From the IMG/VR virus record IMGVR_UViG_3300020558_000217, positions 41,600-105,599 of that record: 64,000 nucleotides of DNA; one strand, given 5' to 3'. The notes beneath the pieces are model-generated. The model was given only the letters and a program-made list of their open reading frames with translations, made no database searches and was not told the DNA's origin. The translations under genes were made by a program, and so were the position numbers. This document shows, one piece after another, positions 3,343 through 9,490 of this stretch. Source of the DNA: a virus. How positions within the stretch are numbered: position 1 is the stretch's first letter; each line of letters starts with the position of its first letter.

Positions 3343-3884
3343 CCCTTAAAAATCATTTCACCAAAGCTGATTATGACTACATTAAATACAACGGAAAGAC
3401 AGGAATAAAACATGCTTCCTTTGAGAAGCGAAAAGACAAGATTTTCTTTGAGAAACTTTCAAAGATTGAGAATTATCACGAGTTTCTTATTGCTAATCTT
3501 AGTAATAATCCTAAACTCTGGATTCGTGATCTAGCGTATTCAGAATCCGCTCAATTAACATATCAAAATTGGAAAAAGAGAAATCAGTCTCTTACATACA
3601 ATTTTAAAAACGATTTCAAAAAAATATTAGAAGAACCAGGAGGGCAGCAACATCCAGCCGCCCTTCGATTATATCTTGGTAACCAGATCAGTTTGGAGTC
3701 TCTTTGTATCTTTATTAAAATGACAAAGGCGATCGATCAATGGGACTCTAAACTTGAATATGACCCGATATGGGAAGATATCCGATTGAGGGTTGTAAAA
3801 TATACTTCATTCATCAAATTTGATTATGAGAAAGTTAAGCAGACAATGCTTGACATTATGAATGATATGGAGTATACTAAATAA
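3309..3884 (+). CDS. 59: gp59, loader of the replicative helicase
   Basis: 191 residues, close to T4 gp59 (217). The N-terminus FEAYKEYIALKNHFT, then YDYIKYNGK, SFEKRKDKIFFEKLS and a helical, basic remainder are the conserved features of this family. gp59 binds branched DNA and gp32 and loads the gp41 helicase at replication and recombination forks. It is followed directly by gp32, as in T4. Confidence 0.88.
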   Translation: MSAFEAYKEYIALKNHFTKADYDYIKYNGKTGIKHASFEKRKDKIFFEKLSKIENYHEFLIANLSNNPKLWIRDLAYSESAQLTYQNWKKRNQSLTYNFKNDFKKILEEPGGQQHPAALRLYLGNQISLESLCIFIKMTKAIDQWDSKLEYDPIWEDIRLRVVKYTSFIKFDYEKVKQTMLDIMNDMEYTK

Positions 3885-3945
3885 TGGCGGGCGATACAAA
3901 TGCCCAACATACAATTGTTATACACTGTAATACGGAGAAATATAC
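3885..3945 (+). promoter_or_regulatory. gp32 mRNA leader, possible autoregulatory site
   Basis: The leader contains a short stem GGGC (3889-3892) with GCCC (3902-3905), then an AT-rich single-stranded stretch including ACAATTGT, then RBS CGGAG. T4 gene 32 represses its own translation through an upstream pseudoknot followed by unstructured RNA; the layout is similar, but I could not confirm a second pseudoknot stem. Confidence 0.25.
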
Positions 3946-4851
3946 ATGGTAGATTTTAAGTCCCTCAAAGCAGCTTCAGGTAAGAAGTCTCTAGAATCCC
4001 TAACATCAGAGCTTAATAAGCTATCAGGCGGCGAAGGCAAGGGTGCCGATGATCGTTTCTGGGCGCCAACAGTCGATAAGGCTGGTAATGGTTATGCTGT
4101 TATTAGGTTTCTTCCTCCACCAGCTAACGAAGACGTTCCTTTCGTTCGTATCTTTGATCATGGTTTCCAGGGTCCAGGTGGATGGTATATTGAGAATTCT
4201 CTGACCACTCTTGGTAAGAATGACCCAGTTTCAGAATATAATTCTAAGTTGTGGAACTCCGGTATTGAGGCCAACAAGGAAATTGCTCGTAAGCAGAAGC
4301 GTCGCCTTCACTTCATCAGCAATATCTACGTTGTCAGCGATTCTGGCAATCCTGCTAATGAGGGTAAAGTTTTTCTTTACAAGTACGGTAAGAAGATCTT
4401 TGACAAGCTCAAGGAAGCGATGGAGCCACAGTTTGCGGATGAAGAGGCTGTAAATCCTTTTGATCTTTGGGCTGGTGCTAACTTCAAGTTGAAGATTCGT
4501 AATCTCGAGGGTTATCGCAATTACGATAAGTCTGAGTTTGATAAACCAAGTCCACTTCTTAAGGATGACGAAGAGCTAGAAAAGGTTTGGAAGAGCGAAC
4601 ATTCACTTCAGGAATTTCTTGCTCCATCTAACTTCAAATCTTATGAAGAACTTCAGACTCGTTTGTCTAAGGTTCTTGCTGAAGACTCTGCTCCTGCAAA
4701 GCGTAAGGCAGCGGAGAACACTGAAGTTCCATGGCAGGAAGAAGAGTCTGCTCCTACCTTTAAGGCGACTCATGCGCCAAAGTATTCATCTGATGATGAA
4801 GATGATGATGATGAGTCATTGGAGTTTTTTAAGAAACTTGCTAACGACTAA
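3946..4851 (+). CDS. 32: gp32, single-stranded DNA binding protein
   Basis: 301 residues, as in T4. The basic N-terminus (FKSLKAASGKKSLESL) carries the cooperativity/LAST-like region; the core has GWYIENSLTTLG, NEGKVFLYKYGKKIFDKL and GANFKLKIRNLEGYRNYD; the C-terminus is the acidic protein-interaction tail (SSDDEDDDDESLEFF). Unlike T4 gp32 it has no cysteine at all: the CPVC-type zinc motif is replaced by DPVSEYN. The subdomain should therefore fold without zinc. It coats single-stranded DNA in replication and recombination. Confidence 0.93.
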   Translation: MVDFKSLKAASGKKSLESLTSELNKLSGGEGKGADDRFWAPTVDKAGNGYAVIRFLPPPANEDVPFVRIFDHGFQGPGGWYIENSLTTLGKNDPVSEYNSKLWNSGIEANKEIARKQKRRLHFISNIYVVSDSGNPANEGKVFLYKYGKKIFDKLKEAMEPQFADEEAVNPFDLWAGANFKLKIRNLEGYRNYDKSEFDKPSPLLKDDEELEKVWKSEHSLQEFLAPSNFKSYEELQTRLSKVLAEDSAPAKRKAAENTEVPWQEEESAPTFKATHAPKYSSDDEDDDDESLEFFKKLAND

Positions 4852-4885: not shown

Positions 4886-6892
4886 TTAACCCCAAGACAT
4901 ATTCTTTTTATAATTTTTCATCTCTTCATAATGATTACCGCCAAGCATACTAGCCCAATCTGGCCATTCAATATCTCCTGGCATATTATAAGCAAACCCT
5001 GATTGATTTGTAGCAGTCATTCTATTTGGTTCTACATTAACTTGAGGATTAAAGAAAGAACCTTGAGCTTCTTGTATTGTTTGTTCTGTTGCTTGAGATG
5101 TTACTGCTGCTTGATTGAGCATTTGAGCGTTTAATGCAGGCATCGATGGCGTTGAAACTAATTCAGATTGAATAGCAGATGTAATCATTGGTAGAAGCAT
5201 ACCAACTATACCACCAATTCCTCCTCCCATCATTCCTGGCATCATACCCATCATTTGACCCATCATATTTGCGCCAGCTGGAGGAGCTGAGATACCCGAA
5301 GATATGGGTGCTTGTGCTACTGGTTCTGCAGCCGCCATAGGTGATGCTGCAGGAGGTGCCATAGATGTCGTAGTTCCTACTGCTGGTGTTGCACCTTGTA
5401 ATGCTCTTTGTTCTGGGGTTCCTGCTACTTGATACGTATCTGGAACCGATGGCGCACCACCTTTTGGTATTTCAGCATGTAAATGGTTATTATGACCAGC
5501 TGCTGCGTATGGTCCGCTTTCTCTCCAATAAACTTTATATCCAAGTCTAGTCAATTGTTCGGCTAATTGATCGAACTTGGCTCCCATAACAGGATCTCTC
5601 GCTTCAACATTACCTTCTCCGAAATTGATGTCAATTGCTCTACCTTCATAATGAGCTTTGCCTTTATGAACTGGTTTTACACCACCAAATTGTGGATGTT
5701 CAGAAATGCGCATTCCCATTTTTTCTAGAGCATGTCCAAGAGCTACTACGTCTCCTGCAGGCAAAGAAGCGCCAACTTGTTCGCCATGGCCATGACCTTC
5801 ATGAGCTACGCCGCTAATTGGCCCATGGCCGCCTTCTTTACCTATACGTTCTGTACGAGGATCGTTGGCAGAAGGAATGACTTCAGGCGTTGATACTGGG
5901 GTGGCTGTTGGAGTGGATGTTGGGGTGGTGCCACCAGAAGGCGTAGAAGTTGTTTTATTGTCTTGCGGCGAACTTTTAGCTAACGCTGCAGCATTAGCCA
6001 TCCTTTGGCCTAAATGTTGATGCGTTGATCTTTCGTAACCATAATCGATTGCTCTTGCTGCTTCTATTGCTGTAGAAGCAGATTTAAGCATTTGACCAGC
6101 ACGTTTTTCAGTATTCATTAATTCCCATTGAACGAACTCTAACTGTTGTTTAAAGTTAGATTGTCTAATAGGAATTCCCATTACTTGTTGGAACTTAGCT
6201 TGTCTATCTGGATGCCATTGAGCAATTCCGTATGCTTGACCGTTATCACCCACAGCATTAGTTCTTAAACTTTTTCCTGATTCTACTTGGAGATTGCCGA
6301 CAATGCCAGCTGCCTGTTCTTTTGACCAACCTTTTGATTGGAAGAAAGACATTGCTTCTGAAGAGCTTCCAGATTCACCAACCCCTGGACCTATTGCACC
6401 GCCACCACCAGCGGTTGAAAGCGCTGCCATTCCTCCACCAGCAACTGCAGCGCCAATACCTAATGTGGCTAATTGTTTTGCGAAATCCGAACTTAGATTA
6501 GTAATACTTCCTAGCAAACCACTGCTGCTAGTATTCATGATATTGCGATTTAGACTTTCAATATCACCACTAAGAGTACGAGTGTTTCTGGTTACATTAC
6601 TAATTTCAGTGCGCATAGAATTTTGAATTTCTAAAGACTCTCTGAATAGAGAATTTAGGCTATCAATTTTATTGCCTGTTTGCTGAGACTCTGAAACCAT
6701 CTCTTCAAGCACATTATGAAGATCCGCAATATCTTCTCTTTGTGATTTGAAGGTTGTAGAAATATCTTTGACAATTCTACTTAAATTGGCATTACTAGCA
6801 TTGGCTGCTTGACGAAACTCGCCTGCAGTCTCCATGCCGGCATTTCTAATGCCTCTAGTTATCGCCGATAATTCTTCTGCTTCTATGGCCAT
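4886..6892 (-). CDS. Tail protein with lysozyme and M15-type peptidase domains
   Basis: 668 residues. Residues 1-130 are coiled-coil; 137-165 a hydrophobic Gly/Ala segment; about 178-290 a phage tail lysozyme domain (FFQSKGWSKEQAAGIVGNLQ, likely catalytic E204, GIAQWHPDRQAKF); 310-345 a Thr/Pro linker; about 375-478 a zinc peptidase domain with H414, D421 and H470-L-H472 as in M15 D,D-carboxypeptidase or L-Ala-D-Glu peptidases; then a Pro/Ala/Met-rich tail. It should degrade peptidoglycan during infection. Coiled coil plus position after the gp26 frameshift gene suggests it may also be the tape measure or hub centre. It replaces the lysozyme missing from gp5. Confidence 0.8.
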   Translation of the reverse strand: MAIEAEELSAITRGIRNAGMETAGEFRQAANASNANLSRIVKDISTTFKSQREDIADLHNVLEEMVSESQQTGNKIDSLNSLFRESLEIQNSMRTEISNVTRNTRTLSGDIESLNRNIMNTSSSGLLGSITNLSSDFAKQLATLGIGAAVAGGGMAALSTAGGGGAIGPGVGESGSSSEAMSFFQSKGWSKEQAAGIVGNLQVESGKSLRTNAVGDNGQAYGIAQWHPDRQAKFQQVMGIPIRQSNFKQQLEFVQWELMNTEKRAGQMLKSASTAIEAARAIDYGYERSTHQHLGQRMANAAALAKSSPQDNKTTSTPSGGTTPTSTPTATPVSTPEVIPSANDPRTERIGKEGGHGPISGVAHEGHGHGEQVGASLPAGDVVALGHALEKMGMRISEHPQFGGVKPVHKGKAHYEGRAIDINFGEGNVEARDPVMGAKFDQLAEQLTRLGYKVYWRESGPYAAAGHNNHLHAEIPKGGAPSVPDTYQVAGTPEQRALQGATPAVGTTTSMAPPAASPMAAAEPVAQAPISSGISAPPAGANMMGQMMGMMPGMMGGGIGGIVGMLLPMITSAIQSELVSTPSMPALNAQMLNQAAVTSQATEQTIQEAQGSFFNPQVNVEPNRMTATNQSGFAYNMPGDIEWPDWASMLGGNHYEEMKNYKKNMSWG

Positions 6893-6895
6893 TTG

Positions 6896-7078
6896 TTATC
6901 CGTTAGTTTTCTTTTTAGCTTCTTCTACTTCTTTCAAGTAGTTGACTAGCATTTGAACATATATGTCTCTCTCAAAGGGCATCATAGATTCTATTTCACT
7001 AATTGAGTATTTATGGTGCTGAGCCAAAGAAAATACAGTCGCATAATAGTTAGATAGCGTATTATGACTCAGCGCCAC
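6896..7078 (-). CDS. 60-codon ORF, probable frameshift extension of gp26
   Basis: Opens with GTG overlapping the end of gp26 by 10 bases in the -1 frame. It continues SHNTLSNYYATVFSLAQHHKYSISEIESMMPFERDIYV and ends in a charged helix. The pattern of a short helical protein after an assembly protein resembles the T part of the lambda G-GT tail chaperones. It is more likely made as a C-terminal extension of gp26 by frameshifting at 7081-7087 than from its weak GTG alone. Function inferred from position. Confidence 0.6.
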   Translation of the reverse strand: MALSHNTLSNYYATVFSLAQHHKYSISEIESMMPFERDIYVQMLVNYLKEVEEAKKKTNG

Positions 7079-7087
7079 GTAAAAAAA
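7014..7087 (-). promoter_or_regulatory. Programmed -1 frameshift signal in gp26
   Basis: On the minus strand the gp26 frame reads GAT TTT TTT ACG TGG CGC TGA, so the seven T at 7087-7081 form a perfect T TTT TTT slippery heptamer in the correct phase four codons before the stop. A -1 slip continues TAC GTG GCG CTG into the 60-codon ORF, giving about 294 residues. Downstream, TGGCGCTGAG (7077-7068) can pair with CTCAGCACCA (7023-7014), one mismatch, enclosing an inner stem CATAATA/TATTATG: a plausible stimulator. Confidence 0.75.
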
Positions 7088-7779
7088 TCATTTAACGAAG
7101 ACAACACGATTTCCCGATCGTTCCCAAGTTCGTTTTGGTATAAAATCTTATATTCCATTCTGGGAACATTTAATAGAAAGTTTTGAACTTGTTCAAATGT
7201 CTTGATATTTAAATTTTCAAGAAACTCGTTCAATTCTTCTCTTTTATAATCTTTACATTCATAAATCTGATCTTCAAAATAGATAGATTCGATACATCTG
7301 ATAATTAGCTCAAACATATAATCTTTTTCTAGATTTAGAAAATCTTTGTCATCGTATAACGCAGCTGAAGGATATTTCATGATTATCCCTGACTGCGGAG
7401 TTATCTTAATCTTGTTTTCCATTTTTTTGGGATAGTTGACTTTAACTTCTTCTAAATTGATTTCGAAGTCATATACTTTTTTATCCTCTGAATCTCTATA
7501 TGATACCTTTACTATGTTATCAACTGATACTGATCTTAATTTTAAGAAAATGTATTCAAGATCAAATAATGCTAGTTTGCTAACATCTAATTTTGGGTCA
7601 ACGGAACAATTATTGACTACCTGTTTAATAGCAGAAAGGATGTCAGCTGAATTATCGCTTTCCTTTGCCATCAACAATAATTTTTCTTCTTTGACTAAAA
7701 AAGGTCTAAACTGAAAGTCTTTTTTCAGAGATGGTACATTTATTTTATATACAGGATAATCAATTTTCGGTAATGACAT
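7069..7779 (-). CDS. 26: gp26-like baseplate hub assembly protein
   Basis: 236 residues; the N-terminus (IDYPVYKINVPSLKKDFQFRPFLVKEEKLLLMA) and overall helical make-up are those of the T4 base-plate family (gp26/gp51), where gp26 is 208 residues. It takes part in building the central hub. The reading frame ends in a slippery heptamer that links it to the next ORF, which suggests it acts as a tail-assembly chaperone made in two forms. It belongs to the minus-strand operon that begins with gp4. Confidence 0.75.
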   Translation of the reverse strand: MSLPKIDYPVYKINVPSLKKDFQFRPFLVKEEKLLLMAKESDNSADILSAIKQVVNNCSVDPKLDVSKLALFDLEYIFLKLRSVSVDNIVKVSYRDSEDKKVYDFEINLEEVKVNYPKKMENKIKITPQSGIIMKYPSAALYDDKDFLNLEKDYMFELIIRCIESIYFEDQIYECKDYKREELNEFLENLNIKTFEQVQNFLLNVPRMEYKILYQNELGNDREIVLSSLNDFFTWR

Positions 7780-7794
7780 TAATATACTCCATTA

Positions 7795-8460
7795 TTAAAT
7801 TGTCACAGAGCTCCTTGCAGTCCCTGATGATAGATTAGTTCTTTGTTGTGAATTAGTTGGCTGTATTGAAGAGTTTTCTATTGTATATTCTGTGTAAGCA
7901 ATAGAGACATTGATTTTTAGAAGATTTGAATCGCCCCAAGAGAGAGGAAATTCTCTGATAGCTGTAGGAAAGGCGTCAAAAAGATTTATTTTTTGAACTA
8001 TGTTACCATAATGGTCGTAAATGAAAATAACCATAGTGGTGGCATAGTTTTCTTTATAATCTGCAGTATAATTTGGCGTAGAATTATTTGCAGTTGAACC
8101 GTTATATTGAAAAATAGCTCTAGTCCATTGATACCAATATTGCCAAAATTCGCAATAATGATCGCCAAGCATAGAAATAGATACTTCTTGAAATTGAGCG
8201 CTTATTGGCATTTTTTGAGTTGGACCTATACCAAATCGATTAATATCCGCTGTCATTATAGAAATACCAGGAGCTCTTACTTGATCTATTCTGAACTCCA
8301 TGTTTTTAGCAATTTTATAAATGGCTGTAGGAGTGCCCTGATTACTAAGAACAGCGTTTGACAAAACTCGAGGAGTTTGTATCAAAACTGAGAATGCATT
8401 ATTGTCTAGATAGCCAAAATCTCTTAAATTTGTTTGATAGGCGTTTATGTTAAATGGCAT
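7795..8460 (-). CDS. Tail-tube-like protein (gp19 paralogue, gp54-like role)
   Basis: 221 residues. Its start MPFNINAYQTN and the FSVLIQTPR strand resemble gp19 of this same phage (MAFNINSFKVN, FQVQITPP). It keeps the tube-type mid section (RAPGISIMTADINRFG, EFPLSWGDSNLLKINVSIAY). In T4, gp54 and gp48 have the tube fold and start tube polymerisation on the baseplate; a gp54-like initiator is the most economical reading. The C-terminal 25 residues are Ser/Asn-rich. Confidence 0.65.
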   Translation of the reverse strand: MPFNINAYQTNLRDFGYLDNNAFSVLIQTPRVLSNAVLSNQGTPTAIYKIAKNMEFRIDQVRAPGISIMTADINRFGIGPTQKMPISAQFQEVSISMLGDHYCEFWQYWYQWTRAIFQYNGSTANNSTPNYTADYKENYATTMVIFIYDHYGNIVQKINLFDAFPTAIREFPLSWGDSNLLKINVSIAYTEYTIENSSIQPTNSQQRTNLSSGTARSSVTI

Positions 8461-8468
8461 TTTTCTTC

Positions 8469-9044
8469 CTAGTAAGGTGGTGAACCAGCATATCTTCTAT
8501 TACTATTAATTTTCCATCTTTGAAGCGGTAACACAGCAGCCTTTTCCCAGTCAGAAGGGTCAACTTCATGAAAAGAACTTCTAACGTGCGAAAAAAGATA
8601 TCTTTTTATGCAACCTTCAACGCCTTTTAATTGATTAGAGTAACCTTTTAAAAACTCATAAGATATACTTAATCTCTTATTCTTATTATATTTATTTTCA
8701 TCGGTCAAATCTATCAGAGAATTTAATATTTTAATTCTGGCCAAAGGAGGTAGGTAATGAAGATTGATTCCTAAAAAACCATCTAGATACATTTCAACTG
8801 GTAGGGTCAGTGGAAACATATCGTAAAACGGTAAAGTGTTTTTGTATTTGGGATCATAAAGATAAAGAAACATTCCGCCTATAAAAGGCATAGATGATTT
8901 TCTAAAAATTTTATTAGGATCAGCTTTTGTTTTATTTGCCTTCAGATCTTCGACAGAGGAAGAAAACCAATCTTGGGCTGTAGTTGATTTGTCTGCTATA
9001 GCCCTGGAACTGGCTTTCAGAAGATCATTAAAAGTATTTGGCAT
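8469..9044 (-). CDS. Conserved T4-like phage protein, 191 aa, function unknown
   Basis: Begins MPNTFNDLLKASSRAIA and contains GGMFLYLYDPKYKNTLPFYDMFPL with a long aromatic-rich middle; this pattern recurs, from memory, in marine T4-like phages next to tail genes, usually without a function. It has no nuclease motif or signal peptide. The stop-start overlap with gp4 (both at 9044) suggests co-translation. Probably a virion or assembly protein; a gp2-type (DNA end protection) role is possible given gp4 beside it, but not shown. Confidence 0.55.
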   Translation of the reverse strand: MPNTFNDLLKASSRAIADKSTTAQDWFSSSVEDLKANKTKADPNKIFRKSSMPFIGGMFLYLYDPKYKNTLPFYDMFPLTLPVEMYLDGFLGINLHYLPPLARIKILNSLIDLTDENKYNKNKRLSISYEFLKGYSNQLKGVEGCIKRYLFSHVRSSFHEVDPSDWEKAAVLPLQRWKINSNRRYAGSPPY

Positions 9045-9490
9045 TAAAACATGAGTCCTAGCTCTTTTTCAGTTATGATTTCAAATTCATAACCTCTGTC
9101 TCTACAAAATTCTCTGGCAGCTTTCCATTTTGCTGAATTTACACCCCAAGTCATAACTTCATTAACATATTTCCGAGACTTTCTTTTACCTTCAGTAATA
9201 GTTGGAGGTAAAGTCTGGGCATAAGGTTTTATTTCAATTACTATAGTTTTGGTACCTTCTTTAGTTTTTTTCCTGACTACAAAATCAGGATAATACCTAT
9301 GGACTCTATTGTCCACTGGAGATCTATAAGGAATTATAGTCTCTTCGCTCTGCCACCAAATAACGTCTGGATCTTTATCCAGCCTAGCCATATACACAAA
9401 TTCCCATCTACTTCTGTAGACAATATTTGAAGAATCGCCTTTGTATTTATCAGGGTTTATGGGTTTAAAGTAACCTTTATATGTTGCCAT
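9044..9490 (-). CDS. 4: gp4, head completion protein
   Basis: 148 residues against 150 in T4. Conserved features: SNIVYRSRWEFVYMARLDKD, then IIPYRSPVDN, YYPDFVV and IEIKPYAQ, a PD-(D/E)xK/TnsA-type nuclease core, and the C-terminal KWKAAREFCRDRGYEFEIITE. gp4 acts on packaged heads before tail joining. It is the first gene of the minus-strand operon, 37 bases from a late-promoter match. Confidence 0.88.
   Translation of the reverse strand: MATYKGYFKPINPDKYKGDSSNIVYRSRWEFVYMARLDKDPDVIWWQSEETIIPYRSPVDNRVHRYYPDFVVRKKTKEGTKTIVIEIKPYAQTLPPTITEGKRKSRKYVNEVMTWGVNSAKWKAAREFCRDRGYEFEIITEKELGLMF

Follow-up and report, generated by a model that had tools for sequence, protein, structure and literature searches.

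In a 64,000-nucleotide stretch of T4-like phage DNA (the window), gp26 and the 60-codon open reading frame (ORF) that overlaps its 3′ end appear to form a single recoded gene, whose short and long products would serve as chaperones of the tape measure protein; judging from sequence comparisons, the probability of this reading is about 0.88. Most ribosomes would terminate at the gp26 stop codon to give a short protein (TAC-N, like gpG of phage lambda), and a minority, meeting U_UUU_UUU and the stem 7 nt beyond it, would slip back by one base to give a 294-residue fusion (TAC-NC, like gpGT). Both forms would act jointly as tape measure chaperones in hub and tail assembly. Such slippage presumably takes place at some rate. 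The sequence comparisons show the signal, its phase, the coding nature of the -1 ORF, the conserved stem, and the identity of T4 gp51 as the in-frame form of this fusion, derived from a gp26 paralog.

Organization of the gp26 gene and its -1 extension

The features of the gene and its neighbors are listed in Table 1. The 3′ end of gp26 reads TTA AAT GAT TTT TTT ACG TGG CGC TGA, and the initial annotation was right in its coordinates and main elements, among them the perfect in-phase T TTT TTT near the gp26 stop. In the -1 frame, no stop interrupts the stretch that starts just upstream of this heptamer and runs to the stop codon at 6898..6896, so that a slip would yield a product of the length initially proposed. 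In searches with the fusion as a single chain, phrog_150 is matched over residues 1 to 280 (E = 1.4e-64) and phrog_634 over residues 223 to 292 (E = 1.3e-25). The latter family, labeled "baseplate hub assembly catalyst," is the gp51 domain. Thus, gp26 has the N-terminal PF12322 domain and the gp51 domain is confined to the long form, as in T4-like chaperones. The predicted tryptic peptides of the window are EIVLSSLNDFFYVALSHNTLSNYYATVFSLAQHHK, which spans the shift, and EIVLSSLNDFFTWR, which comes from the short form.

Table 1. Coordinates of the putative recoded gene, its signals, and the adjacent genes in the window
Feature	Coordinates	Strand	Details
Preceding gene, tail tube/gp54-like	7795..8460	minus	221 aa; PF23849 (E = 5.9e-10), phrog_45 (E = 1.4e-22)
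gp26, putative tail assembly chaperone, short form (TAC-N, "G")	7779..7069	minus	236 aa; PF12322 (E = 5.8e-53), phrog_150 (E = 3.3e-56)
Slippery heptamer T_TTT_TTT	7087..7081	minus	In phase with gp26 (GAT TTT TTT)
gp26 stop codon TGA	7069..7071	minus	Codon 4 past the heptamer; three sense codons between
-1 frame extension (gp51/"T" domain)	6896..7084	minus	60 residues past a tyrosine codon; stop 6898..6896; phrog_634 (E = 5.7e-26)
Predicted frameshift fusion (TAC-NC, "GT")	6896..7779	minus	294 aa (233 + 61)
Conserved stem, 5′ arm	7073..7065	minus	9 bp; starts 7 nt past the heptamer
Conserved stem, 3′ arm	7026..7018	minus	Pairs with 7073..7065 (columns 8-16 with 55-63)
Inner 7-bp inverted repeat	7042..7066	minus	7066..7060 with 7048..7042; not conserved; overlaps the outer stem
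Next gene, tape measure candidate with tail lysozyme domain	4886..6892	minus	668 aa; PF18013 (E = 2.4e-27)

Genomic context and predicted chaperone function

The position, size, and lysozyme domain of the 668-aa gene that follows gp26 suggest that it encodes the tape measure protein. Its match to the tape measure family phrog_9570 (E = 8.8e-35) runs through the lysozyme region, and a profile comparison with T4 gp29 found no similarity. Farther on than its Phage_lysozyme2 domain, this protein contains a stretch that, by eye, looks like a D-Ala-D-Ala carboxypeptidase type. The gp4-like head completion protein (phrog_218), encoded on the minus strand at 9044 to 9490, matches the TnsA-like endonuclease domain PF08722 (E = 3e-21).

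In phage lambda, gpG and gpGT, which Xu, Hendrix, and Duda are said to have described in 2004, are reportedly the short and long forms made by a -1 frameshift near the 3′ end of one gene, which directly precedes the gene for the tape measure protein. The gp26 gene has the same short/long -1 architecture, and the matching gene order in the window depends on the predicted tape measure gene. The resemblance to lambda is one of architecture, and the heptamer and stimulators differ.

In a review of T4, gp26 and gp51 are named as hub assembly chaperones; against the chaperone reading, it also cites genetic evidence that places gp26 in the hub (PMC3004832). Searches of the PDB matched no chain to T4 gp26 or gp51; T4 gp48 and gp29 are present in the T4 tail structures. 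The architecture of the gp26/fusion pair, its place before the tape measure candidate, the listing in that review, and the absence from the PDB favor its assignment as a tail assembly chaperone. Structures were folded for gp26 and for a T-even gp51. In Foldseek comparisons, the HK97 tail assembly chaperone (2ob9) was found at rank 8 to 10, with E = 1.6 to 2.0 and a probability of 0.35 to 0.38, which is not significant, and neither protein had a significant relative among solved structures by sequence or by fold.

It is unlikely, though less so than the other alternatives considered below, that the frameshift is real but its products serve the baseplate hub, in the assembly of gp27 and gp5, and not the tape measure protein. 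T4 gp26 and gp51 have historically been regarded as hub assembly factors, in a hub pathway that is contested (PMC3004832). However, the short/long pair architecture argues against a role confined to the hub, as does the location of the gene, which in this phage directly precedes the tape measure candidate and in phage Cr30 lies near such a candidate. The two possibilities also overlap, since the T4 tape measure protein gp29 is itself a hub component (PMC3004832). At the level of sequence, the initial proposals of a G/GT-type pair and of gp26 as an assembly chaperone, not just a hub subunit, are both supported.

Relation to gp26 and gp51 of other T4-like phages

T4 gp51 consists of PF12322 (residues 1 to 201; E = 3.9e-52) followed by phrog_634 (residues 147 to 246; E = 1.2e-23); T4 gp26 has PF12322 only. 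When the profile of the frameshift fusion was compared with T4 gp51 in hhalign, residues 7 to 243 aligned (E = 6e-10); the reversed sequence produced no match. On their domain content, T4 gp26 and gp51 are paralogs, with gp51 combining the gp26 domain and the same C-terminal domain in frame. The same short/long pair is found in phages 44RR, G5211, and EC-F2, and the end of gp26 lacks the slippery heptamer in T4, 44RR, G5211, and ZZ1, in all of which the fused gp51 is a gene of its own. The presence of both domains in T4 gp51, together with the loss of the heptamer from T4-type gp26, suggests that gp51 is a frameshift product that became fixed as a gene following duplication. The separate gp51 and the loss of the gp26 heptamer also indicate that gp26 and the fusion are, by all appearances, the T4-like counterpart of lambda G/GT.

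The gp51 domain of Aeromonas phage Aeh1 follows gp26 in the -1 frame, past the sequence GAT TTT TTC. This -1 frame gp51, at 3776 to 3956 of the Aeh1 stretch, is unannotated, and Sullivan et al. 2010 list Aeh1 as a phage without gp51 (PMC3037559). The same paper, in which frameshifting is not mentioned, describes a "short gp51" of cyanophages and vibriophages without the ~200 residues that begin T4 gp51. This protein is the same 60-residue domain; gp26 provides the remainder, which is why the cyanophage gp51 is ~200 residues short.

Several other arrangements are found. In Acinetobacter phage ZZ1 (approximately 4000 to 4755 of its stretch), the gp51 frame is broken at a T-rich stretch, with the protein encoded in one frame up to ...QHYFFFKP and in another from ...ALFFFQAFTG; this break may reflect an indel introduced during sequencing, or else a second site of slippage. 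In Enterobacter phage EC-F2 (4001 to 5294 of its stretch), the fused gp51 adjoins, on the same strand, a shortened gp26 (185 aa, PF12322), which is not annotated as such, whereas the T4 arrangement is divergent. The adjacency in EC-F2 is possibly a trace of tandem duplication. A scan of IMG/VR with a Vibrio gp26 as the query found no relatives, and gp26 of phage P1, considered as a relative, is a different protein that resembles T4 gp53.

Conservation of the heptamer and coding signature of the -1 frame

Loci were gathered by gp26 similarity with search patterns that exclude the junction; a few annotated phages were picked by either part. The 170 loci with both parts include many near-duplicates, and the number of distinct sequences is approximately 108 to 121, depending on the stretch compared. 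The gp51 domain lies in the -1 frame, which is open through the heptamer, in 170 of 170 loci, each of which has an in-phase T_TTT_TT(C/T/G): T_TTT_TTC in 89, T_TTT_TTT in 80, and T_TTT_TTG in 1. The initial annotation had named relatives with a broken heptamer but a kept ORF as a refutation of its proposal; none of the 170 loci combines a broken heptamer with an ORF kept in place. The T_TTT_TTT clade, to which the window belongs, is presumably a freshwater group, an impression drawn from the metagenome sources. Pseudoalteromonas phage vB_Psh_XG4 has a fourth type of heptamer, T_TTT_TTA, deduced from the translated sequences of the two frames, and its -1 frame contains a phrog_634 domain (E = 8e-13).

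Judging from base frequencies, the heptamer is not conserved by chance, since all 121 distinct sequences have TTT as the first (P-site) Phe codon, compared with ~64% among the other Phe codons of the gene, and the base preceding it is T in 110 of 110, versus 64 to 80% at comparable third positions. Single differences in the -1 ORF show a two-fold synonymous excess (11294 synonymous versus 5630 non-synonymous), which is reversed in the other frames; the differences are distributed over the three codon positions as 11495/6298/21076, with no stops in 42 distinct sequences.

Most annotations assume that re-initiation near the gp26 stop produces the 60-residue protein as a gp51 of its own; this is very improbable. 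An in-frame GTG is present at 7078 within the -1 ORF of the window, and an ATG stands at the gp26 stop in Vibrio D490, phiM9, and Cr30, whose annotations follow this assumption. However, 51 of the 108 distinct loci lack ATG, GTG, and TTG both in the first dozen codons of the gp51 domain and in the open stretch that leads up to it, so that the domain cannot be an ordinary separate gene there. Further, the residues encoded ahead of such starts are conserved (FF[YR]..[AS]L), T4-type gp51 is a fused protein, and re-initiation would leave the invariant heptamer and the stem unexplained.

Stimulatory signals

Stimulators of frameshifting are located 5 to 9 nt downstream of the slippery site or are Shine-Dalgarno-like sequences upstream of it; the window has a stem at +7. 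The 75 nt past the heptamer fold with -20.5 kcal/mol (z = -3.4; equaled by 1 of 200 shuffles), and the mean z of the downstream fold across the clade of the window is -4.1. In the window, the 9-bp stem is extended by 4 extra pairs beyond a one-base mismatch. Among 41 sequences of the clade, 93% of the cells of the 9-bp stem are paired, and 5 pairs have changed on both sides, with 27 compensatory cells, which 0 of 500 shuffles match. Because the stem lies inside a coding sequence, codon constraint was tested: it is fully paired in 32 of the 41 sequences, compared with a mean of 17.8 after permuting synonymous codons among the sequences and 0.02 with random synonymous codons, figures that are not strict probabilities because the sequences share kinship.

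The initial annotation had described a second perfect 7-bp stem within the outer one. The outer stem is real, conserved, and covarying; the inner one is present as letters and is not conserved. It is absent from the minimum-energy fold, only 63% of its cells are paired, and its covariation is not above that of shuffles, so it was rejected as a part of the signal and is probably not functional. With the in-phase heptamer, the coding -1 ORF, and the conserved outer stem, the proposed programmed -1 frameshift holds as far as sequences can tell.

The T_TTT_TTC clade is of the cyanophage type and is sister to that of the window. In 92% of its loci, a Shine-Dalgarno-like motif is found 8 to 11 nt upstream (control stretches, 11%; clade of the window, 2%). 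This motif is partly due to a conserved Gly codon, but codon choice there is biased toward forming it: the codon is GGA or GGG in 45 of 66 cases, compared with 165 of 428 among other Gly codons. One cyanophage subclade has an additional 11-bp hairpin, with weaker support (12 distinct sequences).

Slippage of RNA polymerase, and not of the ribosome, on the seven consecutive Ts present in the window and its clade is likewise a very improbable source of the fusion, since in the other half of the relatives the run is only six Ts long and ends at a C, G, or A, and the conserved stem at +7 nt and the Shine-Dalgarno-like motif 8 to 11 nt upstream are classic stimulators of ribosomal frameshifting.

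With ribosomal frameshifting as the preferred reading, we lean toward the view that the stimulator was swapped at one orthologous frameshift site and that the T-even site was abandoned after duplication and fixation as gp51. In the lineage of the window, T_TTT_TTT would then be driven by the covarying 9-bp stem with its ~38-nt loop, without a Shine-Dalgarno-like sequence; in the cyanophage-type relatives, short hairpins and a Shine-Dalgarno-like sequence located upstream would drive T_TTT_TTC.

Comparison with known systems and implications

Tail assembly chaperone genes of T4-like phages were identified by Vladimirov, Gautam, and Davidson (Virology 2022, 566:9-15), as cited in PMC10885494 and PMC12846349. 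From these citations, the genes in question appear to be 26 and 51, in which case they belong to the same families, PF12322 and phrog_634. According to these citing papers, some T4-like phages have short and fused copies in place of frameshifting, and poly-T frameshift signals are known from T4-like TAC-N genes. Thus, the core idea of a frameshifted T4-like tail chaperone is, according to these citing papers, already known, since it was published by Vladimirov et al. 2022. What goes beyond that study as cited is the T_TTT_TTT clade, the stem that covaries downstream of the heptamer, and its contrast with signals of the Shine-Dalgarno-like type upstream. In the papers covered here, with Vladimirov et al. 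2022 represented by its citations, no statement was found of the T_TTT_TTT clade, the covarying stem, the stimulator exchange, or the resolution of Aeh1. The chaperone frameshift of Vandenendeviridae and Andersonviridae (phage Adele; PMC12846349) likewise has a poly-T -1 signal that is conserved, and ahead of its tape measure gene lies an extension open in the -1 frame; it differs in being from other phage families and in its invariant GTTTTT motif.

The family phrog_150 ("baseplate hub") mixes T4 gp26 and gp51, and phrog_634 ("hub assembly catalyst") is largely the detached frameshift extension; this split is copied by annotation pipelines. The reading proposed here would correct the annotation of hundreds of marine and freshwater T4-like phages, in which a "baseplate hub subunit" gp26 and a "short" or "missing" gp51 would be one frameshifted gene, and would account for the cyanophage gp51 seeming 200 residues short and for Aeh1 seeming to have no gp51. 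If the stimulators were indeed exchanged, these phages would provide a natural series showing the gain, swap, and loss of recoding signals, in which the stimulators at a single recoding site could be tested.
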